Positions 15,620-48,179 of a DNA stretch of 64,000 bases are shown here, piece by piece. Position 1 is the stretch's first letter. Each line of letters opens with the position of its first letter. The DNA comes from Fragilariopsis cylindrus CCMP1102 (lineage: Eukaryota; Bacillariophyta; Bacillariophyceae; Bacillariales; Bacillariaceae). The stretch lies in assembly GCA_900095095.1 (NCBI GenBank), contig FMBT01000450.1, positions 34,052-98,051 of the forward strand, read 5' to 3'. Under the pieces are notes generated by a model. It searched no databases, was not told where the DNA came from, and was given only the letters and a program-made list of their open reading frames with translations. The translations under genes and the position numbers were made by a program.

Positions 15620-17323
15620 TCAAGAATCATCTCCGAGGCTTGCAACAAATGAATCAGCAACCCTCATGCCTGTTTGCATGCTTGTCGCTGAGGTTGGTCC
15701 TGCTACCAGCCGTTCCAGGACACTTGCATCGGATATGAGCAATCCCGGTGTGCCCTTCACCTGATAGGAATCGTCGACGACCTTTGCGTTGCCGCCATAG
15801 TAGTGATAATAGGAAGCAAACATATCTGTACTGCATCCTTTGCCCGTGAATTTATCAGCGTTCCAAAATGTGGCCAAGTTTGGTTTGATAATGTTGACAA
15901 TTCCGGTTTTTGTCGCCAACCACAACAACCTGCGACGATTTCTCGTACCGACTCCAGCCTTGACTTTGTTTTGGAGTCTTCCGCCATCCTTCATGGGCTT
16001 CATGGACCTATTGATAGCCTTGCACATCTTATCCGTCGCCGTGATCTTGCTGTCATCAATTATGATGCCAAGTTTGTTTTTATTATAATTAAATTTACCC
16101 CATGGTGACCAGGTATTGTTTCGAAACTTAGCAATCGCCTCAAGTTCGATAATGGGATCAGAGAATACACCAATTGCCCACATACTAGATCCCTGTAAGA
16201 ACCAGCCAGCAAATTTTACGATTGGTTTTAACACGAATCGCAACCCAGTCCAAATGACATAGTTCCTGTGGGTCCTTACCATAAGCCACGTCTTGAGGCC
16301 TTTGGTCCAGAACTCGTATGCTGAGCCGTTGGTATCTTCCGCAATGAGCCTGGGTTGTGCTCCATAGGGATCGGCTGTCTCTGGCTCGGCGCCCACAAAG
16401 ACAACAGAATGTTCGTCACCGACTCCCTTCCCAACGTCTTCGTTGGGCGTCCACCAGTCTTCGGGCACCTCCCGCACTTTCAAATACTTTTCCGGTCCAA
16501 TCCCGGTCTCGACGAGAAGGTCAAACGTGTTGAAGACTCCTCCGGCAAGAACCACGGCCAAGTTGGCCTTCCACGCAACGCACCCCCCGTACTCGTCCTG
16601 AGCATGGTCGATGCGGACACCCCGAACACCAATCGCACGACCGGTGTTGCCCTCTCGAATTACGCTGGCCGCGCGGGCATGGGCGTATGTGACTTTTCGG
16701 TTTTCAGTGGAATACCGAAGATCGTCCGCCAGCAACAGGCGGTTTCGTCCGTCTTCGGTGCGAAGGCTGGAAGGCTGGGACACGATATCCTTGTCGTCCG
16801 TTTTGATGGGAGGCGGTGGGCCTTCCTTGAATCCAGTGCTTTCGAAAGCTTTGACCCATCTCTCGGAGGTCTTTGTCGGGGGAATAATAGAGTGGTTCCT
16901 CAATTCAAATACATCCACGGGATCGTAGGGTTCATCACTCACAAGATAGTTGGCGCCACCCGAATTTGCGGCGTCTCCTCCACCAAAGTTGTTCCAGGCC
17001 TTGCCGGCAATATGTTTCAGTTTCTTGCGCGGGATATTGGTAAGAACTTCGGCGTCGACATCAGTGATTTGTTCCGGCCAATTCAGTGCCTTGAAATCCT
17101 GTCCCTTCTCGATCCAGATAACACTCAGGTCTGGACGAATGCGCACCAGACGATGGAGAAAGCCGGCGCCTGCTGGCCCGGAACCAATCAAAACCACGTC
17201 GGCTGTTCCAATGGCGTGACTGCCGTTGTCGCCGGTGATTCCTCGACATTGGGGATCATTATTTCCGTTCGCCACGGCGGCAAACAAAGCAAGAAACAAC
17301 ACAAGATACTTCATTGGAGCCAT
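15620..17323 (-). CDS. Secreted GMC-type oxidoreductase (choline/alcohol dehydrogenase-like flavoenzyme)
   Basis: A 567-residue intronless frame. Residues 1-20 form a signal peptide ending VANG. An FAD-binding Rossmann motif follows: DVVLIGSGPAGAGFL at about 42-55 and a second-strand acidic end, IWIEKG, at about 69-74. A glycine-rich NNFGGGDAANSGGANY segment at about 111-126 also fits the family. The C-terminal domain has YYHYYGG, where GMC enzymes keep their first catalytic His, then GTPGLLISDASVLERLVAG and TSATSMQTGMRVAD, the classic GMC ending. The family oxidises alcohols, sugars or sterol-type substrates; the substrate here is unknown. Length is typical (500-650). The gene is visibly GC-richer than its surroundings, suggesting a different history or strong codon bias. 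The second catalytic His/Asn cannot be assigned by eye. It is probably secreted or in the endomembrane system. Confidence 0.9.
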   Translation of the reverse strand: MAPMKYLVLFLALFAAVANGNNDPQCRGITGDNGSHAIGTADVVLIGSGPAGAGFLHRLVRIRPDLSVIWIEKGQDFKALNWPEQITDVDAEVLTNIPRKKLKHIAGKAWNNFGGGDAANSGGANYLVSDEPYDPVDVFELRNHSIIPPTKTSERWVKAFESTGFKEGPPPPIKTDDKDIVSQPSSLRTEDGRNRLLLADDLRYSTENRKVTYAHARAASVIREGNTGRAIGVRGVRIDHAQDEYGGCVAWKANLAVVLAGGVFNTFDLLVETGIGPEKYLKVREVPEDWWTPNEDVGKGVGDEHSVVFVGAEPETADPYGAQPRLIAEDTNGSAYEFWTKGLKTWLMVRTHRNYVIWTGLRFVLKPIVKFAGWFLQGSSMWAIGVFSDPIIELEAIAKFRNNTWSPWGKFNYNKNKLGIIIDDSKITATDKMCKAINRSMKPMKDGGRLQNKVKAGVGTRNRRRLLWLATKTGIVNIIKPNLATFWNADKFTGKGCSTDMFASYYHYYGGNAKVVDDSYQVKGTPGLLISDASVLERLVAGPTSATSMQTGMRVADSFVASLGDDS

Positions 17324-17458
17324 TAGAAAGTCTTGTTCAGAAACAAATATTAAGCAAGAGTGATTTGACTTTTAATAAATGCCTGTTCTGCAAAAGATGA
17401 GGAAAGAAAAGATATTTTGTTCATTGAAGGAAAACACAATCGTCACTTAGGCCGTTCC

Positions 17459-17791
17459 TTATCGTGAACGAGAAAGAGAACGAGGACGAAACACTTTCGT
17501 TCCCATAAGCAGGGGTAATACATTCCACTTGTCTGTCTGTGGTTGATTGGCTGTGGCTGAATATGATGTTGAATGATGTTGTGCGAGATCTATTTGTCGT
17601 ATCATACATTCCACTTGTCTGTCTGTGGTTGGCGTTCCTACCTCGACGGCAACTTGTATAAATGGTTCTGTCGGAAGTCCGTCTTTGAATGTGATTGGAT
17701 AACGCTTACCGTGAGCAACACCAGCAATAACAGCAGTCAACAAAATAGAAACGACAACATGATGAAGAGCAGTTATAGAGTATCTCGGCAA
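17459..17791 (-). pseudogene. Truncated secreted-protein gene, possibly the N-terminus of a pepsin-like protease
   Basis: The frame begins with a good signal peptide (MPRYSITALHHVVVSILL, then TAVIAGVAHG). The following FIQVAVEVGTPTTDRQVECM resembles the segment just before the first catalytic Asp of pepsin-family proteases, but the DTGS motif is absent. At that point a 28-base direct repeat (17518-17545 and 17604-17631) restarts the sequence in another frame, and the rest is repeat-derived Ser/Arg. It ends 136 bases from the start codon of the GMC gene, on the same strand. A duplication-truncated gene is the simplest reading; a real short secreted protein cannot be excluded. Confidence 0.4.
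17518..17631. repeat. 28-base direct repeat, 86 bases apart
   Basis: Copies at 17518-17545 and 17604-17631 are identical (core CATTCCACTTGTCTGTCTGT). The spacing is not a multiple of three, so the duplication changes frame in the truncated gene over it. Confidence 0.9.
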
Positions 17792-18599
17792 CTACGCACA
17801 ATCTAGAAGTACTTTAAGTACAGTAATGTATGTATCTGGAATGATATTTCTCCACTCACCTAATTAACCTAAGCAGTAAGCCATACAGTTACAGTATCTC
17901 GCGTACTACATCATCGCGACGTTCATCAATCACATACTGTACATAACAAAGAAGATACAGTATCTAACTGAGGTAAGAATTTTTATCATCAATCAAAAAA
18001 TAATACACTACAGGCAGCACTAACTTATGCGAACCATGATTTCCTTCTTTCTGAACACAAAGCGCGTGGAAAACACGCGTCGAACGCATGCATGCGCAAA
18101 CAACAACATGGTGAGTAATAAAAAGTATATAATAATAATAATATTATGAAATAATATTATCATTAACTACTATTGTTGCTTCCCTAAGAAAATATTTCTT
18201 ATACTTATGGTACTGCATGTAGTAAACACAATAACAAAATAAATATACAGTATCTTAACTTCAACTTTCCAATCCCCCCCCCCCCCCCCCTTCAAAAAAA
18301 AACATTAACAACGCAACAATATTCGCGCCTGTATCCTGTATGCAACAAATAATAATAATGAATTTTGACACATCGCAGCCCCATAATCATTATTTATTTC
18401 AATCCTAATACTTCTACATCCTCCGTGCAACCCTAATTACTTCGTAGGTCCTAGTATGTATGAGTACACGTACTATAATTAAAAATATAATATAATAGCA
18501 AAGGCGACAAACGAAAAACAGCAGCCATCCTTTTATTATTACTAATTAGTAGCATTACATACGCAACTAATACTAAAAATGGGTCAAAAGACAAAAAGC

Positions 18600-28150: not shown

Positions 28151-28311
28151 ATAACCAGTCAGGGTTTCGAATGAATTCTTTCTTGCCTATTCAAAAAATA
28201 TCGACACAGTCCTCACAAAAAAAGTAACAACACAAATTGAAACAACAACAATAGCGATAATATAATATAGGACTACTACAAATAACACCATCAACAATAG
28301 TCAACATCAAG

Positions 28312-30372
28312 ATGACGGTAACGAATTCAAGCATATCGATTTTGGAACAATCATCAACATCCGAGGAGGTGGATATGGGTACATTCGAGGAGGTGGATAT
28401 GGGTGGCGGTACTAATGACGCCGATAACAGTAAGCCATCCGAACTACATTTAAGATGGGCAAGATTACAAAAGTACGTCGAAATTAAAGATGAAACGACG
28501 ACACTTAAAGGAAAGATCTCAAAGGTCTCACCAAATGCTGGAACAAGGAGTAGCACGGTCAATAAAGTTATTCTCGATGGTATTAGCGCAGAAGCTAAAC
28601 CTGGTGAAATTCTTGCAACAATGGGACCAAGTGGTAGTGGAAAGACCAGTCTTATGAACGTATTGAGTGGCCGTGCCGCATACCAAGAAGGGACGATTAG
28701 TATTAATGGCAAAGCTTTAGACAAATATGGAATGAAGCGTCTTATGAGTAAGGTAGCTTATGTGAAGCAACAAGACGTCTTCTTCGAGACACTTACAGTG
28801 ACAGATCAATTAACATACACTGCACAACTTCGTTTTCCTGACGATGTTGGTACTAAGAAAGAGCGAAATGAAAAGATCCGAAAAGAAGTAGAAAGGATCA
28901 TTAAGCTTTTGAGACTAAGAAAAGTAGCGCATTCCCCTATCATGATGTGTAGTGGAGGTGAGAAAAAACGGGTAAATATTGGAACCGAGTTATTGACTGA
29001 CCCAAGCATTATTATGTTAGACGAACCAACTAGTGGACTTGACTCAGCCTCGGCGATCAGTTTATTGAATGTTCTTAAAGATCTGGCTAAGAATCATGGT
29101 AAAACTATCATCACGAGTATCCATCAACCCAATTCTGCTACATTTTTAAATACATTTGACAAACTTCTTATGCTTTCCGACGGCCATGCAGTTTTCTTTG
29201 GAACGCCAAATGATTCTTTACCTTACTTGCGTAGCAAAGGATATGCCTGTCCTGAAGGGTATAACGCAGCTGATCACTGGATGGATCTACTTGTGACCGA
29301 TAGTGCTATAGAAGAAGAACGGAAAGAGGTCGCGAAATATGGCAACCCCACAACTGATTCGTCAAAGAAAAACAGTGAATCACCTCGTTTTTGCCTTCAA
29401 AAGGAATGGGATAATGACGCAATCGCTAGACAGATGGATGTTGTGGACGAGATCCAATCAGATGGTGGTAAAACTATTGGTAGTTTCGAAATGAAGGACG
29501 GAGAAAGTAAATATACTACGGGTTGGTGGACACAATTTTCTACTTTAGCACATCGTGCATTAAAAAAGAACAAGTCGAACGTTTTCAGTCCAATCAATCT
29601 CGTGAGAACAATTGCAATTGGAATTATTGTGGGGATCGTCTACCTGGACCAGAGGTATACCGAAAAGGATGTTTTCAATATCTACGCATACTTTTTCTTT
29701 GCCATGTTGTATTGGGTATTTAATGGTATGTTCGAGGCATTGTTTGCATTTCCACAAGAGAGAGTCATCATTCAGAAGGAGAGAGCAACCGCATCTTATA
29801 GATTGAGCGCTTACTTCGCATCAGCAACAGTTGCTGATTTGCCAGTGTTCTTAGTTATGCCATGCATTTATATGACAATATCATTCTGGATGGTATGTCC
29901 ATCCTTTGGTTTTATCACGTATATTGCCGTTATTTGCATAGCATTTTTAAGTGTCATGGCCGGACAAGCCTTGGGATTCCTTATTGGTGCAACCTTCGAC
30001 GATCCTAAGATCGGGCAGTCGGTAGCGACCGTGGTTGTGTTATTTCTCATGCTTTTAGGAGGTTTCTTTGCTAAAAATATTCCTTCTTGGTTGTCTTGGG
30101 TAGTATACATTTCACCATTTGCCTACGCATCGAATGCTGCAATGCTTGTAATTTTTAGAAACCCGATCCCGTGCGACGGGTCAGGTGCTTTGAGTCCTAT
30201 GTGTGCCGTGGGAGATACAACAAGCTTCATTCCAGTCGATGATATCTTACAATCCCTCAATGTTTTCCTTCCACTCGGATGGAATATTGCTTTACTACTT
30301 GTATATTGCCTCGTTCCTCGAGTTTTTACATATGTTATATTGCGCCGGAAGAAGGGCGGAGAACGAGAATAG
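28312..30372 (+). CDS. ABCG-family half-transporter
   Basis: 686 residues, intronless, with the reverse domain order of the G family. The ATP-binding domain comes first: Walker A GPSGSGKT at 105-112, Q-loop KQQD near 152, signature CSGGEKKR at 213-220, Walker B IIMLDE at 233-238, D-loop SGLDSAS and switch His in SIHQPNS at about 271. A membrane domain of about six spans follows from residue 405, beginning WTQFSTLAHRALKKNKSN, with an extracytosolic loop near PIPCDGSGALSPMCAVG before the last span. Half-transporters of this type dimerise and export lipids, sterols or xenobiotics; the substrate is not readable from sequence. The signature starts with Cys instead of the usual Val or Leu, a mild variant. 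A 21-base doublet near 28363-28405 repeats EEVDMG in the N-terminus. A decayed fragment of this gene lies at 31770. Confidence 0.95.
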   Translation: MTVTNSSISILEQSSTSEEVDMGTFEEVDMGGGTNDADNSKPSELHLRWARLQKYVEIKDETTTLKGKISKVSPNAGTRSSTVNKVILDGISAEAKPGEILATMGPSGSGKTSLMNVLSGRAAYQEGTISINGKALDKYGMKRLMSKVAYVKQQDVFFETLTVTDQLTYTAQLRFPDDVGTKKERNEKIRKEVERIIKLLRLRKVAHSPIMMCSGGEKKRVNIGTELLTDPSIIMLDEPTSGLDSASAISLLNVLKDLAKNHGKTIITSIHQPNSATFLNTFDKLLMLSDGHAVFFGTPNDSLPYLRSKGYACPEGYNAADHWMDLLVTDSAIEEERKEVAKYGNPTTDSSKKNSESPRFCLQKEWDNDAIARQMDVVDEIQSDGGKTIGSFEMKDGESKYTTGWWTQFSTLAHRALKKNKSNVFSPINLVRTIAIGIIVGIVYLDQRYTEKDVFNIYAYFFFAMLYWVFNGMFEALFAFPQERVIIQKERATASYRLSAYFASATVADLPVFLVMPCIYMTISFWMVCPSFGFITYIAVICIAFLSVMAGQALGFLIGATFDDPKIGQSVATVVVLFLMLLGGFFAKNIPSWLSWVVYISPFAYASNAAMLVIFRNPIPCDGSGALSPMCAVGDTTSFIPVDDILQSLNVFLPLGWNIALLLVYCLVPRVFTYVILRRKKGGERE

Positions 30373-33580: not shown

Positions 33581-34233
33581 ATTCCAACATATATATTTTT
33601 ACTTAGGGTGCTCTGACTATTTTCTACTTAGCGGAGTCACATTTTCTTTTCTTAGTCAATTGCACAAAATCGCCATCGTTCTTTCTTCAATATCCTTCTT
33701 GAAGCTTTCCTTTTACGGTTTCTGCTGTGATTAGTATAAGTGAACTGTTTTTAGAGATGAATAATGCATGATGATTGTTAATCAATTACTAAAAAATTAC
33801 TAATTCATTATTTAATTATGGTATTAAAGTTTTTGATAGATATGATTTTGTTATACCACAAAAGTACAGACGACGCGACTTCGCGACTTCGGCGAGACCC
33901 ATGAAGCGATACTACTTGAAGTAGCATGGAAGGAAGCGACGAGACCGCAACTCAGGTTGGAAGTAGCGTCGAGAAACGCGACGAGTGACGCGATAGTTGA
34001 ACACATTGGACGCGATGGACTCAGACTCAAGTCCTCCGTTCTCCTTCTCTTTTATCCCGAAGGTAAAGTACGGTTTTTGATTTAATATTGTCGTGAGTGA
34101 TACTGTAGAACAATTAATTAATGTCCTATTTTGTACACGTGTGTGTGTGTTACTATATACTAGTACAATTGATGACGATCACCTACTACGGTAAATAGAA
34201 TTATAGTACTGTTGTGTCGCAATCCACAAAAAC

Positions 34234-36170: not shown

Positions 36171-37325
36171 TTATATTGTTGTAACAGTATTATTATTTGA
36201 GATTGGTGGACATTGTTGACATGATTCCTTACACCAATGATTACCAATCGATTTCCCTTTATGTTTCTTTTTACATTTGTTTTTCTTTGATGCCCATTTA
36301 CACCAATTATTCTTTCCCTTATATTTCAATTTCAGATCTTTACAATTATTTTCGTCTTCGTTACTATTACTACCTGTTGGTGGTTCATTATCATCTCTTG
36401 TTGCTGTACATGTACTACAGGATGATTGACACCAATAATTTGCAATTGAGTTACCATTAAAATCCTTGTTACATTTATTTTTCTTTGCTATCCATTTACA
36501 ATTTTTCTTTTTCTTTCCTTGATATTTCAATTTCAGATCTTTACATTCTTCTTCTTTACCAACGTCATTGAAAAGAACATCGACATCGATGATCTTGACT
36601 GTTGTTTTTCCACTATTTGATGCATCATAAGTAACCTGAAATTCTTTTTTATTATCCTGCTGCTCTAACATAAACGAAGAAGATGACGAAAAAACAATCA
36701 ATCCCTGTTGAATCATTTTATTCAATTTGTCTTTCATGTTGTTGTTGTCATTGCCATTGCCATTCAACGTAAGTTTAGAATCATCATCCATAATAAGTTT
36801 ACATCCATTATTTTCACAAATAGTAATATCATTGGCAATAATTTGTGCATTACCGGAAAGTATTATTACACCAGATCCTCCGACACCACCGCCTATTGTA
36901 AGTGTATCACCAATATTGATTTGTGAATTATGAGACGCATAGACAATTGCATCACTTTCTAAATATTGTCCAATAATCATATTTGTCACAACATTTAATG
37001 TAGCATCTTCTAATAAATCAACTTGTACATTTTCCATACTATTCGATGATCCGGATCGACCAATAATTAATTCATAAACTTCTGCTGCTGCTACTTCAGA
37101 ATCAGAATCAATAGCAACATACGTATTTGATTCATCAATCCATACTGTATCTATTGAGGTTGGTACTTTTAATATATTCGTCCATCGTGATGGATCAAAC
37201 CATGATGAAGTATCATTGATTGTACCATCAAATTTATCAAATATAGTTCCTTCTTCTTGTGCTGCTGCATCTGCATTTATCATCAGAGCGACAATCGTGA
37301 TGATTAGTAGTAAGAATTGAAACAT
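36171..37325 (-). CDS. Secreted beta-solenoid protein with two ShK-like C-terminal modules
   Basis: 384 residues, intronless. A signal peptide (MFQFLLLIITIVALMINADA) is followed by a repeat-rich beta region: SSWFDPSRWTN, VPTSIDTVWIDESNTYVAID, YELIIGRSGSS, TLNVVTNMIIGQ, INIGDTLTIGGG, GVIILSGNAQIIANDITI. The pattern (W..P..W, VP...DTV.I, then short hydrophobic repeats) is like bacterial and algal surface beta-solenoids. Two six-Cys modules follow at about 260-310 and 330-377, each of the form CKDLKLKYxGK..C.W..KKNKC...G.SI.N.WC..SC..C, which is ShK-like. These modules are very Lys-rich. A wall-associated or extracellular binding role is inferred. Paralogue at 41300. Confidence 0.85.
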   Translation of the reverse strand: MFQFLLLIITIVALMINADAAAQEEGTIFDKFDGTINDTSSWFDPSRWTNILKVPTSIDTVWIDESNTYVAIDSDSEVAAAEVYELIIGRSGSSNSMENVQVDLLEDATLNVVTNMIIGQYLESDAIVYASHNSQINIGDTLTIGGGVGGSGVIILSGNAQIIANDITICENNGCKLIMDDDSKLTLNGNGNDNNNMKDKLNKMIQQGLIVFSSSSSFMLEQQDNKKEFQVTYDASNSGKTTVKIIDVDVLFNDVGKEEECKDLKLKYQGKKKKNCKWIAKKNKCNKDFNGNSIANYWCQSSCSTCTATRDDNEPPTGSNSNEDENNCKDLKLKYKGKNNWCKWASKKNKCKKKHKGKSIGNHWCKESCQQCPPISNNNTVTTI

Positions 37326-39518
37326 AGTAGAAATAGAGATACCAATAGTATGTGTTTATTGTCTCTGTTACGTTGTTTTGTTCTTTATCTTCTTTTTATT
37401 TGTGAGACTTCGGTATAGTTCCCCTTGAATGTGTACATGAACGGTAATCATTCATTCGCTTTTTGTGTGCGTTTTGGGTTTTTTTCCTTGGGAAGTTTTG
37501 ATATAATAATTGTTATAAAATGTGTGATGACGATGAGAATAGTGTACTGTAAGTGTGGTTACAGTATTTTGAACATTCAAGGAAAGCATGAATAGCCCTT
37601 TATTATATATAGGTTATATATTGAGGATTGTGCGTCTTCTATTTAACAAATACTTCCATAAGAATGGAATTTTTTCGATCGTGGTTTTCATTTTTCCTCT
37701 TACGGTAATAATTTAAAATTGTACGACTAACAGATATAATTTTATATATCAACTACTACTAGTAGTATCATAACGAAACCACAATATACAGTATTTTATC
37801 ATTCAACTTGAATATGAACTTGGAAAACAACATTATTCGCTTTGCACTAAAACGTTAGATCCTCTTCATAATAATGCACTTTTACTTGTATCGTGTATGC
37901 TATTTTTCGATCGTGGGTTTCCTTCTTCTTGTAATAATTTAAAATTGTACGACTAACATATATAATTGCTCTTGTCAACTAGTGTAGTGTATCATAACGA
38001 AACCACAATACAGTATTTTAACATTCAACTTGAATGTGAACTTGGAAAACAACCCTTTGTACTAACGTTATAGATCCTCTTCATAATAATGCACTTTTAC
38101 TTGTGTATCGTTCGTCACAATAATGCATGCGGTGTGCTACTATAATGCACTGTGTAACTGTTAATTTAGCTCTGTAATCATCAATCATAAGTACTTAACT
38201 AATAATACGGTAGCAAATCATAAATTATGTGGCATACTCGGACACACTACTCTTGCAAACGGGAACTTGAACGAGTAGACTAGATTACAAGGGGTCTGAG
38301 TTGTTGACGTACGTATCTGATGGTGACAACCTACCAGGTACCGCCCGCACAAGGTAAAAGGCTGGTAATTTTACTACCCTAAGACTAGCTTTCAAGCATT
38401 TCAAACGGCACGGCATCACACGGTGTACCTATTTTCGATAAATTCTACGCGAGAAAGGCCCTTTTCGATTCAAAAAAGTTTCTCTCAAATCGAAATTATA
38501 TAAGAATACAACATGCATGATGCGTTGGTGTTGATTCAAGTAGATTCTCGACCACGCTAGGAAGCTCTAGTTCGTAAGCTATCTAGTGATCGATTACCTT
38601 CGAAGACTATCTGTAAAAGGAGTGAGTCAATTGGACGAGAATTCGAACACGACAACACAAAGGCATCCATCCGAGCCAGCGTGTCAAGACTTGGCGTCCA
38701 TCCGATTCAGCGTTTCAAGACTTGAACTTTGTAGCTCTACGGACTTACAAAGAAGGAAAAGCCGCGGCCTGTCATCAATATTCAGATCCAAATGATCGAA
38801 TGTGCTGCCCTCACAATTTGTCCGTGGCTTAGAAAAAATATGTGCGTGTCTTGCCTATTATATCAGATTTTGATTGCTTTCTGGTTAGTTCGCTTCGCGG
38901 TTCTGTGAGAACTCCTGGCTTCGCATAGGCCGCTACCATTAGTCGAATTAGAAACTGTTCTTCGGCTCTTATCACTCAAGCAATTGTTTTGGGTACGATC
39001 GTTTGTAGTAACTTACAGCTAAGTTGTAGTTTGTACGATTTTAATAATTTTTGGACAGCTCTCTCATTTTTTTTGAGTCGGATTAACTTTTAGTCGTATT
39101 TTAAAACTTCATAATAAATGTCGGAAAATTAATTTTGATTCACAGTTCTCTTACTACTGATTTCTACTTGTTAATTTCTCTCAGGGCTTTTTACGTGTTA
39201 ATGATGGTGTTGGCTGCAATTCACCGTATCGTGCACTCCAAGCATGCCCACGCGTAAATCACGTTCTCTGCGCTTGCTGAAGCATGCGTTTTTGATTGAT
39301 GACGATTTTTGTTTTCGACTATTATATCATCAACAAATACAAGTTTTGTATGCAATGCTTATGTTCCGAACAAGCACTGTAGCGAAAACAAAAATCAGGT
39401 TGACGCAGTATTTCCAACACGCACAGTAGTAGTACTACTATTTCTGTAATCACTTGACAACAACGACACACAAAAAAAGGTTATTCGAATTTCATTGCAC
39501 AGTCTAGACAGTATCATC
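37326..39518. other. Gene-free stretch with a large doublet
   Basis: Contains the doublet of about 232 bases at 37671-38120. At 38660-38730 there is a short internal repeat (CATCCGA..CAGCGT.TCAAGACTTG twice). Frames at 38586-38795 and 39244-39429 show nothing recognisable. Confidence 0.5.
37671..38120. repeat. Tandem doublet, about 232-base period
   Basis: Units start at 37671 and 37903 (TTTTTCGATCGTGG) and share AATTTAAAATTGTACGACTA, ATCATAACGAAACCACAATA, CATTCAACTTGAAT and ATCCTCTTCATAATAATGC. Divergence is moderate, so this is not recent. Confidence 0.9.
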
Positions 39519-40241
39519 ATGTGTGTACCTACCAATTCATCCCCGCTTCGTATCTTGGCTGTATGGGGATCCGAGTGTGGTGGAACAAAGAAAGAAACCC
39601 AGCAACTCGTGGAGGGTTGGGAGACAACAGAAAAATATGTTGTTACAGTGTTGGAAGGGGATAAGGCTGCCGATAAGTTTGACCAGATCACGGTAGAGAA
39701 CTACGATCTGTTGGTGGTGCTTACTTCTTCCTTCGGCGACGGTGATCCTCCGACTGGATTTGGAAAGTTTCTCTACAAGATGTATGAGTCCGCCAAAGAT
39801 GGAAAGAAGGCTTTTGCCGGATTGGAGCACGCCGTTCTTGGATTTGGCAGTACCCATTACTACACCTTTCAAAACGTTCCACGGTTGTGTGATCGATTAT
39901 TGGAAGAGTCGGGAAGTCGACGTTGTTTGATGCGGAAGGAAATTGATGAAATGGAGGAACTGAGTGACAATGTAGAAAGCATTAAGGTTTGGAATAGTTC
40001 GTTCGTAAAATATTGCAATGAGAAGAAGTCGTCTGCAACAACGAAGATAGCAAGCGAATCGGTGTGTAAATGGACCGAACCAGAAAGTGAAGTCTTTGAA
40101 AAGAAACTTGGACCAGATGGATACGACTTAGGCTCTGGTCCGGCGGTAAGTCCGGTAGCTATATTCGCCGTGATTGGTGTGGCTGTCGCTGCCTTTGCAT
40201 ACTTCAAATTCGTAAAAGATGGTACAGAAGAAGCAGCGTAA
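39519..40241 (+). CDS. Flavodoxin-domain protein with a C-terminal membrane anchor
   Basis: 240 residues from the ATG at 39519 (the frame is open a little further upstream, but without ATG). The FMN-binding loops of the diflavin-type flavodoxin fold are visible: VWGSECGGTKKETQQ at about 16-30, LTSSFGDGDPPTGFGKFLYK at about 68-87, and LGFGSTHYYTFQNVPRLCDR at about 107-126. A linker follows, then one hydrophobic span near the end (SPVAIFAVIGVAVAAFAYF) and a short charged tail, so it is probably tail-anchored with the flavin domain in the cytosol. It lacks the FAD and NADPH modules of cytochrome P450 reductases, so it should pass electrons between separate partners. Codon use is less AT-rich than the flanks. 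Partners are unknown. Confidence 0.85.
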   Translation: MCVPTNSSPLRILAVWGSECGGTKKETQQLVEGWETTEKYVVTVLEGDKAADKFDQITVENYDLLVVLTSSFGDGDPPTGFGKFLYKMYESAKDGKKAFAGLEHAVLGFGSTHYYTFQNVPRLCDRLLEESGSRRCLMRKEIDEMEELSDNVESIKVWNSSFVKYCNEKKSSATTKIASESVCKWTEPESEVFEKKLGPDGYDLGSGPAVSPVAIFAVIGVAVAAFAYFKFVKDGTEEAA

Positions 40242-41299
40242 AATAAAGCAATCATTCATTGCGCTCTACTATCATGAATTACTTGAAATTAAATACTGCA
40301 AACCTCTTGTATAGAGTGCATTTACGCCAGTGGTCAGAGTAAAGCGAACGTTAAACGTAACTGGATCTAAAAGACATAATTGATGAGGTGGAATGAACGA
40401 TAACAACGGATACGCATTTTGATGAGTTCACTTATTTAAGGTATCAGTTCAGTTTACTTGTGATTGTGATGACTTGTATAATACCGGTCAATCTAATAGG
40501 AGAATTGACTGGTCGTAGCGAATCATATACTGTATATAATAGAATAGAACAGAATAGTTTTAATGTATGTAGAAGATCGTTTATAACACGTAATTTTCTA
40601 TATTTGTATTCATTAAGGATAGAAGGAGGATGATGCCAATCAAGCTAGTGCTGTGTGGCTTTGCGCATGCTATATCTTTCCCAACAATACTAAACATTGC
40701 ACTGTACGGTATCAACTACGAACTCTATATAAATCAAGACAGGTATACATTCCATCCATCTACAATCATCATCATTATGTATTAAAGACCAAAGTACTGC
40801 GTCTCGTATGTAGTATATATGGGGCAGTCAGTAGTTTGTGTAGTGGTTATATTTTTTATCATTTCTTATTGTTCTTGAGTGGTTGGAATTTGTGAGCAAC
40901 ACTCTCAACTTATATTAGCCAACGACGCACAGCAACAACAACGACAAAAACACAACATCAGTGATGTACTCGCACGCACAGGCAAAAGCACAGCACAGCA
41001 CAGCACAGCACTTGTATGGTGATCGAATCGAATCGAATCGAATCGAATCGAATCAGATAATGCATTGTTATGAATAGTAGTAACATAGAAGAAAGTTGGT
41101 AAACGTGGGACTATTGTACTTGTATTTGTATTGCTATCTAGTATTTAAGGTATGTAGTAGTACGTGTAGTAGTGCTCTCAAAATCTTCCCTTATTATAGA
41201 TATCTATATCTATATCTATTGCATTGTATTTGTATTATACATCGATCAGCAGCAGCAGCAGCAGCAGGTATTCAATACAGCTATACCCAATAATAACAA
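40242..41299. other. Gene-free stretch
   Basis: Contains CAGCA units near 40990-41011, AATCG units at 41022-41055, TATATC units near 41204-41220 and a GCA run near 41250-41267. No gene. Confidence 0.5.
41022..41055. repeat. (AATCG)n pentamer repeat
   Basis: About seven units. A (CAGCA)n run lies just before it at 40990-41011. Confidence 0.85.
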
Positions 41300-42706
41300 T
41301 TATACAATCTTTAATTTATAGTATATATAGCTTGATACATTATTTGTTCGCAACATTCTTCTTGTTCTTCTTCGTGTAAAATTAATGTCTGTTGGATCCA
41401 GTGGTGGACTACATTTTCCACAGGCTTCTCTACACCAATGATTTTTAATTGATTTTCTTTTATATTTTTTACCACATTTGTTTTTCCTAGCAGCCCATAT
41501 ACAATTTTTCTTTTTCTTTCCTTTAAATTTGAATTTTCCTTTATCTTTACAATCTTTCGTAGGTGCTTTCGTTGGAGCTTTTGTTGGTGGTTCTGTTGAT
41601 ACAAAGTTAAATGTTGTTGGTGCATCTGTTGGTTCTGGTGCTTTCGTAGGTGCTTTCGTTGGTGGTTCTGTTGATACAAAATTAAATGATGTTGGTGCAT
41701 CTGTTGGTTCTGGTGCTTTCGTAGGAGCTTTGGTAGGTGCTTTTGTTGGTGGTTCTGTTGACACAGAGATGAATATTGTTGGTGCATCTGTTGGTAAAAC
41801 AGGTGCTTTCGTAGGTGTTTTCGTAGGTGCTTCCGTAGGTGCTTTTGTTGGTGGTTCTGTTGATACAGTTGTTGGTGCATCCGTTGGTAAGCCATCAGTA
41901 ATGATTTGAACTGTTGTTGTTATTGTTGTACCACCATCATTTGAGTTTGTTGTAACATGAAATACTTTATTGTTTTCATCTTCATCTTCTTCTTCTTGTT
42001 GACCTTGTTGTTGACCTTGTGATGAACTTGATGATGATGAAAAAACAATTAATCCGTATTCAATCATTTGATTTAATTTGTTTCGTTTATCACCATTAAT
42101 ATGAAGTGTCGAATCATCGTCCATAATCAGTTTACATCCACCAACACCGGAGGAACTGATTTGATCACAGATATTAATATCATTGGCATGGATTTGTGCA
42201 TTACCAGTTAAGATTACTATACCCGATCCTTCCGAACCAATTGTCAGTGTTTCACCAACAATAATTTGTGTATTCTGTGATGCAAACACTGTACCATCAC
42301 TTTCTAAAAATTGTCCAATAATCATATTTGTGGCAACCTTTAATTTTGCACCAGTTAATAAATCAATTTGGACACTTTCCATTGAATTGGATGATCCGGA
42401 TCGACCAATAATTAGTTCATCGACTTCTGCAATTTCTTGTATCGAATCAATAGCGACGTATGTATTGGATTCATCAATCCATACTGTATCAATATTCGAT
42501 GGAATTTTTAATATACTACTTGTAGTCCACCGGGATGGATCAAACCATGAGGAACTATCACTAATTGTACCATCAAATTTATCATAAGTTTCTGCTTCTG
42601 CTGATACTTGTGCTACTTGTGCTGCTTGTGCATTTACTACTGTTGCTATCGTTGATATCAGAGCGATATTCGTGATGAATAGTAGTAGTAAGAATTGAGA
42701 AATCAT
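41300..42706 (-). CDS. Secreted beta-solenoid protein with Pro/Thr-rich stalk and one ShK-like module
   Basis: About 468 residues from the ATG at 42706, chosen because it starts the signal peptide (MISQFLLLLFITNIALIS). Its solenoid part is closely similar to the protein at 36171: DKFDGTISDSSSWFDPSRWT, SNIDTVWIDESNTYVAID, DELIIGRSGSSNSMESVQID, TNMIIGQFLESD. It then differs. A stalk built from repeats such as STEPPTKAPTKAP and PTDAPT (about 110 residues) replaces the first ShK module. A single Lys-rich six-Cys module follows (CKDKGKFKFKGKKKKNCIWA to NHWCREACGKC), then a basic tail. Pro/Thr stalks of this kind occur in algal cell-wall proteins and are often glycosylated (known); surface location is inferred. 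The two paralogues flank the flavodoxin gene. Confidence 0.88.
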   Translation of the reverse strand: MISQFLLLLFITNIALISTIATVVNAQAAQVAQVSAEAETYDKFDGTISDSSSWFDPSRWTTSSILKIPSNIDTVWIDESNTYVAIDSIQEIAEVDELIIGRSGSSNSMESVQIDLLTGAKLKVATNMIIGQFLESDGTVFASQNTQIIVGETLTIGSEGSGIVILTGNAQIHANDINICDQISSSGVGGCKLIMDDDSTLHINGDKRNKLNQMIEYGLIVFSSSSSSSQGQQQGQQEEEDEDENNKVFHVTTNSNDGGTTITTTVQIITDGLPTDAPTTVSTEPPTKAPTEAPTKTPTKAPVLPTDAPTIFISVSTEPPTKAPTKAPTKAPEPTDAPTSFNFVSTEPPTKAPTKAPEPTDAPTTFNFVSTEPPTKAPTKAPTKDCKDKGKFKFKGKKKKNCIWAARKNKCGKKYKRKSIKNHWCREACGKCSPPLDPTDINFTRRRTRRMLRTNNVSSYIYYKLKIV

Positions 42707-43856
42707 TGTATTGCAGTAATGCGTTTTTTTGTGTGTCTGTTTTATGTAATTTTTTCCATGTGCCACAATCTTGTCTAATCGTATGTATTTATGTGCATTG
42801 TGCGTTCTTTTATTATGGCTGTTTTGGGCTCTTTTCTTGGGATCTCTTCTACTTCTTTTGTGTCCTTCACTGCTCAGGTTCTACTTTTTTGTACGATCTG
42901 CTGTTACGTATTCAAAAAAATGAACTGGGTGTCATCCAATTTTGTTGTTTTTGGTTGCATCACATTTAGAGAACCCTTGAATACCGTATATCGATACTCA
43001 ATGTACAGAACAAAAAATCTTTTTTTTTTGAAATAATGGCTTGTTTCGATTTAACAGACTCCTCTGGTAGTTGTGTTTTTTCCGAATCTCTGGCTCGTGT
43101 TCATTTATTCAAAGTGTGTCTGTCAAAATGAAACGTAAAATACCTTATATTCTATTATGCCCTCTCGTGACGTATCTATAGATGTTTTCGGCCATATATA
43201 AATGATTTGCGCTCAAGACTGATCGGGTCATCATTTAATACGTAAGACTTATACCTCACATAACCATAAATAAAATTAAGGTGCGGCTTGTTAGTTGCTA
43301 TTTTGTTCCTAGTACTTCAAAAGTACGATTAAGCTTCGAATCTCATGAGACATTGACTAATGTTCGAGTAAGACTAAATCTAGTCTCCTCTCGAACAAGC
43401 AAGACGTTAAGATTATGAATGGGAATGCAATGTACCGGTATGTGACCAACTTACAGCATTAAATTTTATTAATAAATCTTCAAAAAATATAATTATTAAG
43501 TAAGAAAAACCTTCTTTTCTATTGGTCCTCTTTTATTTTTAATAAAAGGGACTGTAGAAGAAAATCTAAAAAGATATATTATATCAAACGAACCCAATGT
43601 ATGTGCGAACCGTTTGCTAATAAATCTGCGAACTGTACGTGATTACAATGCGATACTAGTACACCATGGGTATGGTCTACTGGCACAGTGCTCCTGATGG
43701 CGTTTACAGAAGCCGAACTTTGCTCTACAATACTCTGTACACACACCTCGAGCAGCAGGAGGCTAGCTGTTATCGCGCAAGTGTCAAAAAATTGTCATTC
43801 CAGCCATTCTAGATACGAACAGTACATATTCTACAGTGGTAGTATCAATACATACT

Positions 43857-43900
43857 ATACATACATACATACATACATACATACATACATACACACATAC
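43857..43900. repeat. (ATAC)n microsatellite
   Basis: About ten tetranucleotide units. Confidence 0.9.
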
Positions 43901-44023
43901 TTACAGTAGTACAGTAGGCAGTGTACTTCTGCCCACACTGTAGTACTCAAATGACAAAAATGAAGCAAATCGAATGAATCACACATCCTCATTTATGCTT
44001 CGACATTAATAAGACTATTGTTC

Positions 44024-44213
44024 GCCCTCTCATTTACATTCCTACATACAGTATATTGCTTTTACTAATATTTTCATCACTACGAAGACGCGACATTCCT
44101 ACACAGAATATTATTATGGTATACCCAATAACCTATGCCCTCTCATTTACATACCTCCATGTAAGCTTCTATTAATATTTTGATGACTACGAAGACGCGA
44201 CATTCCTACACAT
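44024..44213. repeat. Doublet, about 113-base period
   Basis: Units at 44024 and 44137 share GCCCTCTCATTTACAT and ACTACGAAGACGCGACATTC. Confidence 0.85.
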
Positions 44214-44507
44214 AAATTGTCATCGCTTCTATATATATAAGATAACTAAGAATGACGTAACTTTATTAAAAAATCTGCAAAGATTCGATGATTCTAGAAT
44301 CTCCAGTCAGTACTGCGCTGAAACAGGGGAGATCCTATGTGAGTGGAGACTCTGGATTCATCAAAAAAGACGACACGAGGACAACCTTTTTAGAATCAAA
44401 TCATCCTACCACAAACACAAACACAAAGACAGAGACAGAGACAAACGCTAAGACAAAAACATACACAAACAAGCAAGGCGCATTATTCATATTCGTGTAA
44501 AAAAATC

Positions 44508-45090
44508 ATGATGGTAACGTCGATGAAGATGAAGATGATGAATATTTCTCCTTTGATGCTGTTCGCATGGATTGTCGCTTTTGTGAACGCTAACTCAGAG
44601 GAGTTAATGATTGAGAAGAATCCACTCAGTTATAATAATGACACTAAAGTTGATATTAACCGTAATCTTATCGGTAAGTAATAGTACACCGCGCTGTTTG
44701 TAATCTTCGTCGGTATCCTATAGCTATGCTTATGTTTCTGTCTCGCATATTAGTCTCTCTCTATGTCTTTCTCACCGAAACGTTCGTTTCGGTTGTTTCT
44801 CTCTTTGTCCACTTCTTTCTCTACACACTGTATAGTTGGTGGAGAAGAATCTGAGGTACTAGGATTCCCTTATTTCGGTAAGCAGCTAATACATCGCTGT
44901 GTATTTGTTCTGTGCATGTGTCTGTCGATCGATCGGTAAAGTTACTGTTGATATCGGATCAGATCTCAAAATAACATTCGATCAATGTCAACTCTTTTTC
45001 CTATAAGTCCCCCACACGATCCAACACACACTGTGTTGACGTCTCTTTATCTCTCACTCGTTCGTTATTCCCTATTAATTTCCATCCACA

Positions 45091-45121
<31 letters not shown>

Positions 45122-45298
45122 ACATGATCGTAGTCCAAACATTACAAGGTGGTTGTGGTGGTGTATTAATTGCAAATGAATGGGTCTTAACAGCAGCTCA
45201 CTGCGGCGATCTTACAGGTAAATGACACCCTATTTTATCGTTATCTGCTATACTCTGTTAGTTGTACTCGCTTGATCTCTCTCTCTCTCTCGCACACA

Positions 45299-45331
<33 letters not shown>

Positions 45332-47047
45332 TGCTCTTCTCACATAATGACTACTGCTTTTTATTTGGTACGTAGGCGAACAAGTTCTTATTAGTGCATT
45401 CAAGTATTTTGATAACACTGGCGGTTTTGGAAGTAGAGTACGAGCGTGTGTAACCTATATAGAAGAATCGAAATTTAGATGTAGGGCAGAAGTAGGTGAT
45501 GGTCGTATATGCGATCGTAATAATATTAATAATGAATCACCATTCAACAAGATTATGCATTATGTAAATTAAATCTCCCAGTTTATGTTGATGATGAAAA
45601 CGTGAAATTAGAACTTAATTTCGATTCAGATTTTCCATCTACTGGAGATGATGTAATTGCTATTGGATTTGGTTCAACAAGATTAGGTGGACCACAAACA
45701 GAATTTATTCGAGATGTGACATTAAGCGTAAATTCAAATAGGGAATGTCGTAATGCTGATAGTAAAATTTATAATCCTAATTCAATTGGAAGTGAAAGTA
45801 TCTGTGCATCTGATCCAGAAGGTGGTAAAGATACGTGTAGAGGTGATAGTGGTGGACGTAAGTTTCTTTGTATAATTTTCGGGTTATTAGTTGAATAAGT
45901 TTTTTTCCTTCCCTTCCTTCTCACATTCTTTTCTGTCTCCCTTCTCCTGCACATCTGTACTCAACGATTACGATTGCTATTACGATTCGACGATGAAAAA
46001 AACAAACACAATAATACATTATATATCACTAGCCCTTATTACGAGAACATTCAATGCATTAGAAACAAAATCTGTTCATTCGGTATGTAAATAATAATCC
46101 AAGGAATGTATACGATATCATCATGACGATGATCTGTGAATATCTTTCTTTAGCATGATAAAACATACATGTATACTTCCACACACACACCCAATTGCTT
46201 AATCTCTTTCTCTTTCTCTCTCTCTCCCAAAATAAATTCTAATTCAAAGCACGTTGGGATCACTTCGTGGGGAGATAATTGTGGAGAACAGGGTTCTCCT
46301 GGAGTTTATGCAAGAACATCAGCTGGACGTGATTTTATTAAAGGTACTATTTGTAATGATTTTCAAAGTAAATCACCATTCTGCCAAACACCTGTTACTT
46401 GTAATGTTAATGATAGTGAAACTAAATTAACAATCAAAGTAAGACCAGATAATTTCCCAGAGGAAACCGTTCTTATTGTAAGAGATATCACAGGTGGAGT
46501 AGGTGATGAAACATTACTTGAAGTTGGTACTACTGCTGAAAACAGGCGTTCCAGTGATATATACAGATTCTTTACATACGAAGAATCATTATGCTTACGT
46601 CCTGGACGAGATTATCTATTTGAAATTTTTGATAGAGCACAGGATGGATTTTTATCTACAATTAATGGTGATGAGCAGTATCTTGGATTTTATTCATTAA
46701 TTTTAAACGATACTGAAGAAGTAAAAACATCCCGTGGTAGAAATTTTTTTAGTGGCGAGGAATTCCAGTTTACAACTCCACCAAAACTTGAAGTCCCAGT
46801 CGGAATGTCATGTGTTGACGCAGCAAAAAATGTTGTTGTATTTCAGAAGAAGAAGAAGAAGAAGAAGAAGAAGGGTAGGATTAAGAATAAGAATTGCGCT
46901 AATTTTCTCAAGGGTAAGAGAAAGAGAAAGATCAAAAAGAGATGTAAAAAGAAGTTTAATGAAGTTAAAGTACAAGATGTATGCCCATTATCTTGTGGTA
47001 AAAAAGCAGGAGTTGGAAAGTGTAGCTCCCTCTTTGAAAAAAACTAG
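44508..47047 (+). CDS. Secreted trypsin-like serine protease with ShK-like tail, six exons, one apparent frame break
   Basis: Exons 44508-44673, 44836-44877, 45134-45217, 45376-45857, 46033-46082 and 46250-47047, all GT-AG. A signal peptide ends near FVNA. IVGGEE at 55-60 is the usual activation site, GGCGGVLIANEWVLTAAHC carries the catalytic His (92), QDYALCKLN the Asp and DTCRGDSGG the Ser; VGITSWGDNCGEQGSPGVYA closes the domain. Just before the Asp block (about 45545-45551) the frame is off by one base, with a stop at 45569; a single missing base explains it. After the protease come a beta-rich block (LTIKVRPDNFPEETV) and a Lys-rich Cys module ending CPLSCGKKAGVGKC, like the secreted proteins at 36171 and 41300. 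It is either a recent pseudogene or an assembly indel. Introns 2 and 3 hold (CA)n runs. Confidence 0.8.
45093..45121. repeat. (CA)n in intron 2 of the protease gene
   Basis: About 14 units ending 12 bases before the intron acceptor. A similar interrupted run sits in intron 3 at about 45291-45330. Confidence 0.9.
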
Positions 47048-47134
47048 AAAAAAAAACGAACGATGATTTGCCCATTCATTAACCTATTGTAATCTTAAAA
47101 AAATAAAAATAAATGATCCACATACAGCGCAGTA

Positions 47135-47546
47135 ACGCGGGCTTGACTCGTCGGCAACGCTTGACAATTTGCCTTCTGACATTTTGAATATTTTCACCGT
47201 GTATTTACTAGTAGTAAAAAATTTAAATATTTTCAGATTTTCTCAGAGTATTTACTATGTATTTACTAGTAACAAATTTCTATGTAGGACTAAATAATTA
47301 TTTTTGGTTTTAACTAGTTAATACGCGGTGAGCAAATTGTCAAGTTGGGGTATTTGAAATTCTAAAAATATCTTTCTGTTTTTGGCTGTAACTTTTCAAA
47401 TATTTGTCACTTTAACAAAAGTGATGCACCAATAGGAAGCCCTCACCAAGATCTTTCATTTAAGCCATTAAAAATCACATTCCATTGAAAAATAGTTGGT
47501 CAACATTTTTGTGAATCAAAAGCTCGGCAAACCGTCAAGCCCGCGT
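47135..47546. mobile_element. 412-bp MITE flanked by TA
   Basis: Ends are ACGCGGGCTTGAC and its reverse complement GTCAAGCCCGCGT. TA at 47133-47134 and 47547-47548 fits a TA target duplication (Tc1/mariner-like). A second inverted match further in (CGGCAA and TTGCCG-type) extends the similarity. No coding sequence. It starts 88 bases after the protease stop codon. Confidence 0.85.
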
Positions 47547-47548
47547 TA

Positions 47549-48179
47549 CATACTATTGATAATGGGGGCTTTAGTTAGGTTAGTTTATATTATGAGTATT
47601 TGTGTGGGAATACCTGTCAAAATTGGTGTTGGAGCATTCTCCAACCAACAGTGACTATTTTAATTACATTCATCAATTGCTTTTTATAATGAGATATTTT
47701 TGAATTGCTTTCTATAACGGGATATTTTTGAAAACAGGGGTAAACTGCAATTACATCTATAATAATGGTGGGTTAGGATGATGATGCTTTCCATTCACAG
47801 GTAATATGTCCTAGTGAGGACAGTGATTCAATTCTGTGTTCAAATTTACCTGGTGGTATCTGAAAATAAAGATAACGAACAGCTGTGTTTTTGGCTATAA
47901 TCTTACTGTGTAGTGTGGGATGGTGTGTTTCTTTCTTATTTTAATATATAGAAATGACAGTAACAAATACAAGCTGTAGTAATTTATCTTAACAAAAGTA
48001 GTACGGAGATGGTTGGTTGGTGTTTTCATGCAGCAGACACCAACTGGTAGATAAATGAACAACAACAATTATCTCACTTGAAGAAACAACTTGAATGTAC
48101 ACACACACACACACACACAACATCATGACACAACAATGGTTGTGCATATATTTTTTCTTGTGCAGATGTAGGGCCTGTG
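47549..48179. other. Gene-free stretch
   Basis: A short internal duplication near 47677-47735 (TTGCTTT..TATAA.G.GATATTTTTGAA twice) and a (CA)n run at about 48099-48118. Nothing else. Confidence 0.5.

Follow-up and report, generated by a model that had tools for sequence, protein, structure and literature searches.

To our knowledge it is poorly understood how secreted enzymes and structural proteins are kept in place in algae that have a mineral or polysaccharide wall, and one neighborhood in the genome of the diatom Fragilariopsis cylindrus CCMP1102 raises the question in a concrete form. Within a window of 64,000 nucleotides (the whole stretch analyzed, positions 34,052 to 98,051 of FMBT01000450.1, part of contig C442 of an assembly of 67.9 Mb in 818 contigs), three genes, here called A, B, and T, encode proteins that end in related small modules, each rich in Lys and with six Cys. 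What unites these genes: a common process, or the module that each of them carries? We conclude that the locus is a tandem pair of putatively secreted solenoid proteins adjoining a putatively secreted trypsin-like protease, that the uniting feature is a shuffled family of six-Cys modules, and that the neighborhood is ordinary, the wider module family being what merits the attention. The reading that we favor, at a probability of about one half, is that the module is a shuffled extracellular tag for binding or anchoring, borne by many carriers. A module with more than 170 matches on unrelated enzymes would give a handle on protein placement in walled algae, and its profile would annotate many proteins that are now without a domain over that part.

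A six-Cys module family and its carriers

Secreted-looking proteins with related basic six-Cys modules at their C-termini had been predicted for this neighborhood from the DNA letters, and our analysis confirms this original prediction in three genes (two modules in A, one each in B and T; Table 1), the outer limits given being the stops of A (36171) and T (47047). The N-termini of all three proteins are hydrophobic and, as read from the sequence, resemble a signal peptide, and A, B, and T are probably secreted. The N-terminal domains had been supposed to differ; they are of two kinds, not three, the domain of the paralogues A and B and the trypsin-like domain of T. With 67% identity over A residues 6-242, A and B read as tandem duplicates with one N-terminal domain in common.

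That the Cys modules align, as had been proposed, is borne out by an alignment of 31 modules with six Cys in every one, although the 31 were chosen for the six-Cys pattern and their conserved Cys are therefore not independent evidence. The first loop of these modules varies from 13 to 27 residues and the fourth is invariably 3 residues long; the last has 2-3 or 5-8, two length classes that may represent module subtypes. A hidden Markov model (HMM) trained on modules from outside the window, with the paralogues of T also left out, scores B at 41.8, A1 at 37.4, A2 at 28.0, and T at 12.3 bits; for T the expectation value (E) is 0.009 for 1000 sequences and 0.087 for the best domain, and T alone appears as a weak member of the family, tied in through its paralogues L048 and L050 (26.6 and 25.1 bits). 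With an HMM of all 31 modules, the window ones among them, the only open reading frames (ORFs) of the window matched at E<=0.5 are those of A, B, and T, and there are zero matches among residue-shuffled window ORFs.

Across the genome there are at least 173 module matches, which fall into 97 loci (1 to 6 modules each) spread over 71 contigs; they are merged from two consensus queries (the second to E of about 0.08) and a query with module B (to E of about 0.05), haplotype copies being counted twice in the locus totals. The first consensus query gave 150 scored matches among 247 candidates, most of them not checked for all six Cys, and the second gave 87; the module B query gave 18, with the six-Cys pattern in 16 and the other two spanning half the query. 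The pattern is present at seven of the seven further loci that were readable. All queries were built from Lys-rich modules, so that Lys-rich matches are favored.

The partners of the module are diverse. A Pfam scan of 20 module-bearing ORFs, some of them partial, places another family above its cut-off in 10, namely Lipase_GDSL (contig C500), DUF1996 (C288), DPBB_1 (C108, a protein that we take to be expansin-like), Trypsin (C108 and C504), Peptidase_M66 together with TagA and a C-terminal module (C507, locus L061; E 4e-60), Amino_oxidase (C307), DUF285 (C674), and PT repeats (C439 and C788); Pro/Ser/Thr-rich proteins are among the carriers. Proteases of the M66/TagA type are best known from bacteria.

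It is mainly because its carriers are so varied that we read the module as an accessory tag, and the common anchoring surface that had been proposed for the three proteins gains indirect support from the fusion of the same module to several unrelated enzyme families. The module would be a small, disulphide-held tag that binds an extracellular ligand in the wall or matrix of its own cell and retains the carrier there, in the manner of a carbohydrate-binding module, and for the Lys-rich modules of the window the ligand would probably be an acidic polysaccharide or a silica-organic wall. A and B might be two-ended linkers, with an acidic tapirin-like solenoid turned to one surface and the basic module to the other, and the opposite character of their acidic N domain and basic modules would suit a linker joining two surfaces. 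T would be a zymogen (it has an IVGG start) that its module holds near the substrate, and its adjacency to B would be without functional meaning. A wider proposal, tentative and open to considerable doubt, is that the modules constitute an undescribed extracellular address system, a Cys-framed and variably charged family at 97 or more loci that directs proteases, hydrolases, oxidases, and mucin-like proteins to defined sites of the wall or matrix, with A and B as eukaryotic tapirin-like linkers combining a bacterial-type acidic solenoid with basic tags.

Cys order, charge, and the predicted solenoid domain

The modules had been likened to ShK, and in the order of their six Cys they do appear ShK-like; they share with it a C-x3-C pair close to their end, and most have a Trp directly following the second Cys. 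The disulphide pairing of ShK is 1-6, 2-4, 3-5. Membership of the family itself failed in the HMM search, in which A, B, and the last exon of T did not match Pfam ShK (PF01549; curated cut-off 20.9 bits) at E<=1. Scores elsewhere reach 17.7 bits (L036) and 10.5 bits (L039); among the 31 single modules, nine match ShK at E<=10 (best 1.6e-5; A1 unmatched), and every other Pfam family matches at most three. The genome has 16 ordinary matches to PF01549 at E<=0.001, 0 of them inside the window, and in six canonical domains taken from it the loop between the first and second Cys measures 6-7 residues, unlike the much longer one of the modules; the window modules are also strongly basic. In a profile comparison by hhalign, the modules match these six domains at a probability of 10.7, no stronger than column shuffles that kept the Cys (0.8-15.2 in five) and above five full shuffles (0.1-0.8); the real match covers 27 columns, in order, against 2-12 for the Cys-kept shuffles. 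Since a selenoprotein of the alga Emiliania huxleyi is reported to bear a fused ShKT domain (PMC7539508), ShK fusions in algae are as such already known, and the SiMat7-like family is an eight-Cys one (PMC5501833). Among the open-library papers listed in our searches we found no description of ShK-like or similar six-Cys modules in diatoms, and one may exist elsewhere, most subscription papers lying outside this search; the portions drawn on of PMC12028343, PMC4220933, and PMC7972479 deal with subjects other than these modules.

The ShK-like Cys order also brings in a different role, for which there is a direct precedent: Tox1, the ShK-like, six-Cys part of plant type 2 prolyl 4-hydroxylases, directs green fluorescent protein to the Golgi, an effect lost when its Cys are mutated (PMC11275109). 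The module could likewise be an intracellular sorting signal by which the carrier is held at the lumenal Golgi side, a reading that we consider quite unlikely, its first loop being longer than in ShK and most of its known partners being hydrolases, proteases, or Pro/Ser/Thr-rich chains, which in our judgment are unlike Golgi enzymes.

The Lys excess suggests yet another role, also with a direct precedent: Lys clusters comparable in action to the pentalysine clusters known from silaffins would direct all three proteins to the silica wall, and T would process wall proteins there. At least five non-adjacent Lys within 14 residues, our reading of the published definition of five interspaced Lys within 12-14 residues (PMC9650480), occur in all four window modules and in 15 of the 31 overall, a density similar to that of silaffins and cingulins; B has PT repeats, as do many silicon-responsive proteins of Thalassiosira pseudonana, and a trypsin-like protease belongs to the TpSIL2 expression cluster of that species (PMC5501833). 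Set against this are the ordered Cys frame of the modules, the scarcity of S/G-spaced KxxK (0/4 in the window and 2/31 overall, counted in modules only), and the 16 modules that lack Lys clusters even though the queries favored Lys-rich matches; the clusters may, moreover, stem from high Lys content alone. We regard silica targeting as unlikely. Because the net charge is only -1 to +5 in 12 of the 31 modules, which also argues against a purely charge-based mechanism, charge is no family property, a single common ligand is unproven, and the ligands of different modules may well differ.

Two beta-solenoid proteins had been predicted; an AlphaFold2 model from the single sequence predicts the N domain of A as a beta-solenoid, and that of B is its homologue. 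The best and the second-best structural matches of the modeled domain are tapirin (beta-solenoid of 4wa0/6n2b), a tentative likeness, in predicted fold, to the C-terminal domain of the tapirins of Caldicellulosiruptor; those proteins are bacterial, and the sequence matches of the N domain include no tapirin. Tapirins attach to lignocellulose (PMC9933333). The best NCBIfam match of the N-domain family is the T5SS/PEP-CTERM-associated repeat TIGR04393, seen in two of three N domains (not in that of A), and all three of its matches in the genome fall in this family, the only one so found; it stays below the curated cut-off of 23 bits, the best N domain scoring 19.5 (E 0.08-0.64 genome-wide).

Several observations weigh against the extracellular tag and the linkers built upon it. 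The low charge of the 12 modules is one, and the structure model of the module, with a mean predicted local distance difference test (pLDDT) score of 49.7, is another; the solenoid model of A comes from one sequence and has pLDDT block means of 72-85 over residues 101-190, lower values before these, and 49.4 overall. Half of the scanned ORFs (10/20) are without a known partner family, the carriers with amine oxidase and DUF285 domains need not be wall enzymes, and the module is absent from a third N-domain paralogue (C601/C648).

Duplication, chance, and two copies of the region

The clustering had been taken to hint at a common process, a suggestion that finds no support. When 97 loci are placed at random in 67.9 Mb, 1.6 pairs are expected within 12 kb, and 5 are seen, namely A-B and B-T in both copies of the region plus one pair elsewhere (C674); for any one locus, the probability of a second one lying within 6 kb to either side is 0.017. 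A and B are, to judge from the sequence, neighbors through duplication, and B and T plausibly through chance; B-T, as a single pair chosen after the fact, does not testify to a common process, and the module-free third N-domain paralogue points the same way. The order A, flavodoxin, B, T recurs in a second copy on contig C505, where A has 92% identity over residues 17-384, and it is between these two copies of one genome that synteny is observed.

These observations, together with an AAG-repeat run of Lys in module T, could also be taken to mean that the module is a stabilizing or inert tail that shuffling and the growth of AAG repeats have spread, the cluster being a product of duplication and chance. 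That there is nothing more than descent seems to us distinctly improbable in view of the repeated fusion of the module to unrelated enzymes, the Cys kept in all aligned modules (partly selected for), and a ratio of nonsynonymous to synonymous change below 1 between haplotypes for the module-bearing C-terminal regions (0.55 in A and 0.39 in B, from 11 changes each).

Table 1. Coordinates of genes A, B, and T, their domains, and the intervening gene in the window
Feature	Position	Strand	Description
Gene A	36171..37325	-	384 residues, one exon; hydrophobic N-terminus, solenoid-type N domain (predicted), two six-Cys modules
N domain of A	36582..37244	-	Beta-solenoid in AlphaFold2 model; strands residues 58-212, helix 194-206
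Module A1	36408..36545	-	46 residues, 12 Lys/Arg, 2 Asp/Glu
Module A2	36210..36344	-	45 residues, 15 Lys/Arg, 2 Asp/Glu
Flavodoxin-domain protein	39519..40241	+	C-terminal hydrophobic segment; no module, outside the set
Gene B	41300..42706	-	468 residues, one exon; tandem paralogue of A, PTxAP-rich linker, one module
N domain of B	41894..42586	-	Homologous to N domain of A
Pro/Thr-rich linker of B	41552..41890 (ends approximate)	-	
Module B	41411..41551	-	47 residues, 20 Lys/Arg, 2 Asp/Glu
Gene T	44508..47047	+	Exons 44508-44673, 44836-44877, 45134-45217, 45376-45857, 46033-46082, 46250-47047
Module T	46811..47023	+	71 residues, 29 Lys/Arg, 3 Asp/Glu; AAG-repeat run of nine Lys in first loop

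The protease and the rest of the window

That T is trypsin-like, as had been proposed, is upheld by Pfam Trypsin scores of 54.3 and 22.4 bits over two pieces (cut-off 20.6) and by the catalytic triad motifs AAHC, DYAL, and GDSGG, which the six-exon reading (GT-AG in 5/5 introns) gives together with IVGG. T further resembles the S1 trypsin family in an Asp six residues ahead of the Ser and differs from it in an activation site without Arg or Lys (Leu-Ile-Val-Gly-Gly) and in the six-Cys module at its C-terminus. Its paralogues on C63, C86, and C108 match the end of the trypsin domain and the module within one open frame, and Pfam confirms the trypsin domain of that on C108. Module T is longer than the 55-56 residues of the module in its paralogues, partly because of its run of nine Lys.

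In the window copy, the reading frame of T is broken by one base near 45545; the C505 copy does not have this break, which looks like an assembly error. Over the 4,540 aligned columns of 43461-48000, the two copies differ by 2 substitutions, nine isolated single-base gaps, one gap column next to a substitution, and one 4-base gap, and the gaps that break T exons number one in the window copy and three in the C505 copy. We rejected a pseudogene as less likely, the gap pattern between the copies being that expected of assembly errors. From about 43461 the copies are 99.65% identical (counted over the same interval against L021), as compared with 90.7-93.9% in long upstream matches, and their agreement on T is therefore not independent. 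The jump in identity at about 43461 may mark a homozygous tract, a gene-converted tract, or an assembly switch. Just past T, at 47132-47549, lie perfect 16-nucleotide inverted repeats 386 nucleotides apart, whose exact 16-mer recurs in the second copy on C505 and nowhere else in the assembly.

A flavodoxin between the genes had been predicted correctly (Flavodoxin_1, E 5.8e-16), and its single hydrophobic segment, at the C-terminus, makes this protein possibly tail-anchored. Elsewhere in the window, a 583-residue ORF at 15620-17371 on the minus strand is weakly similar to GMC oxidoreductases (22.4 bits, cut-off 24.6); it has a 333-residue open frame on the opposite strand and lies within the most G+C-rich 2-kb block (0.475, 16001-18000). 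At 28261-30372 on the plus strand is a half-size ABC transporter with the domains ABC_tran and ABC2_membrane.

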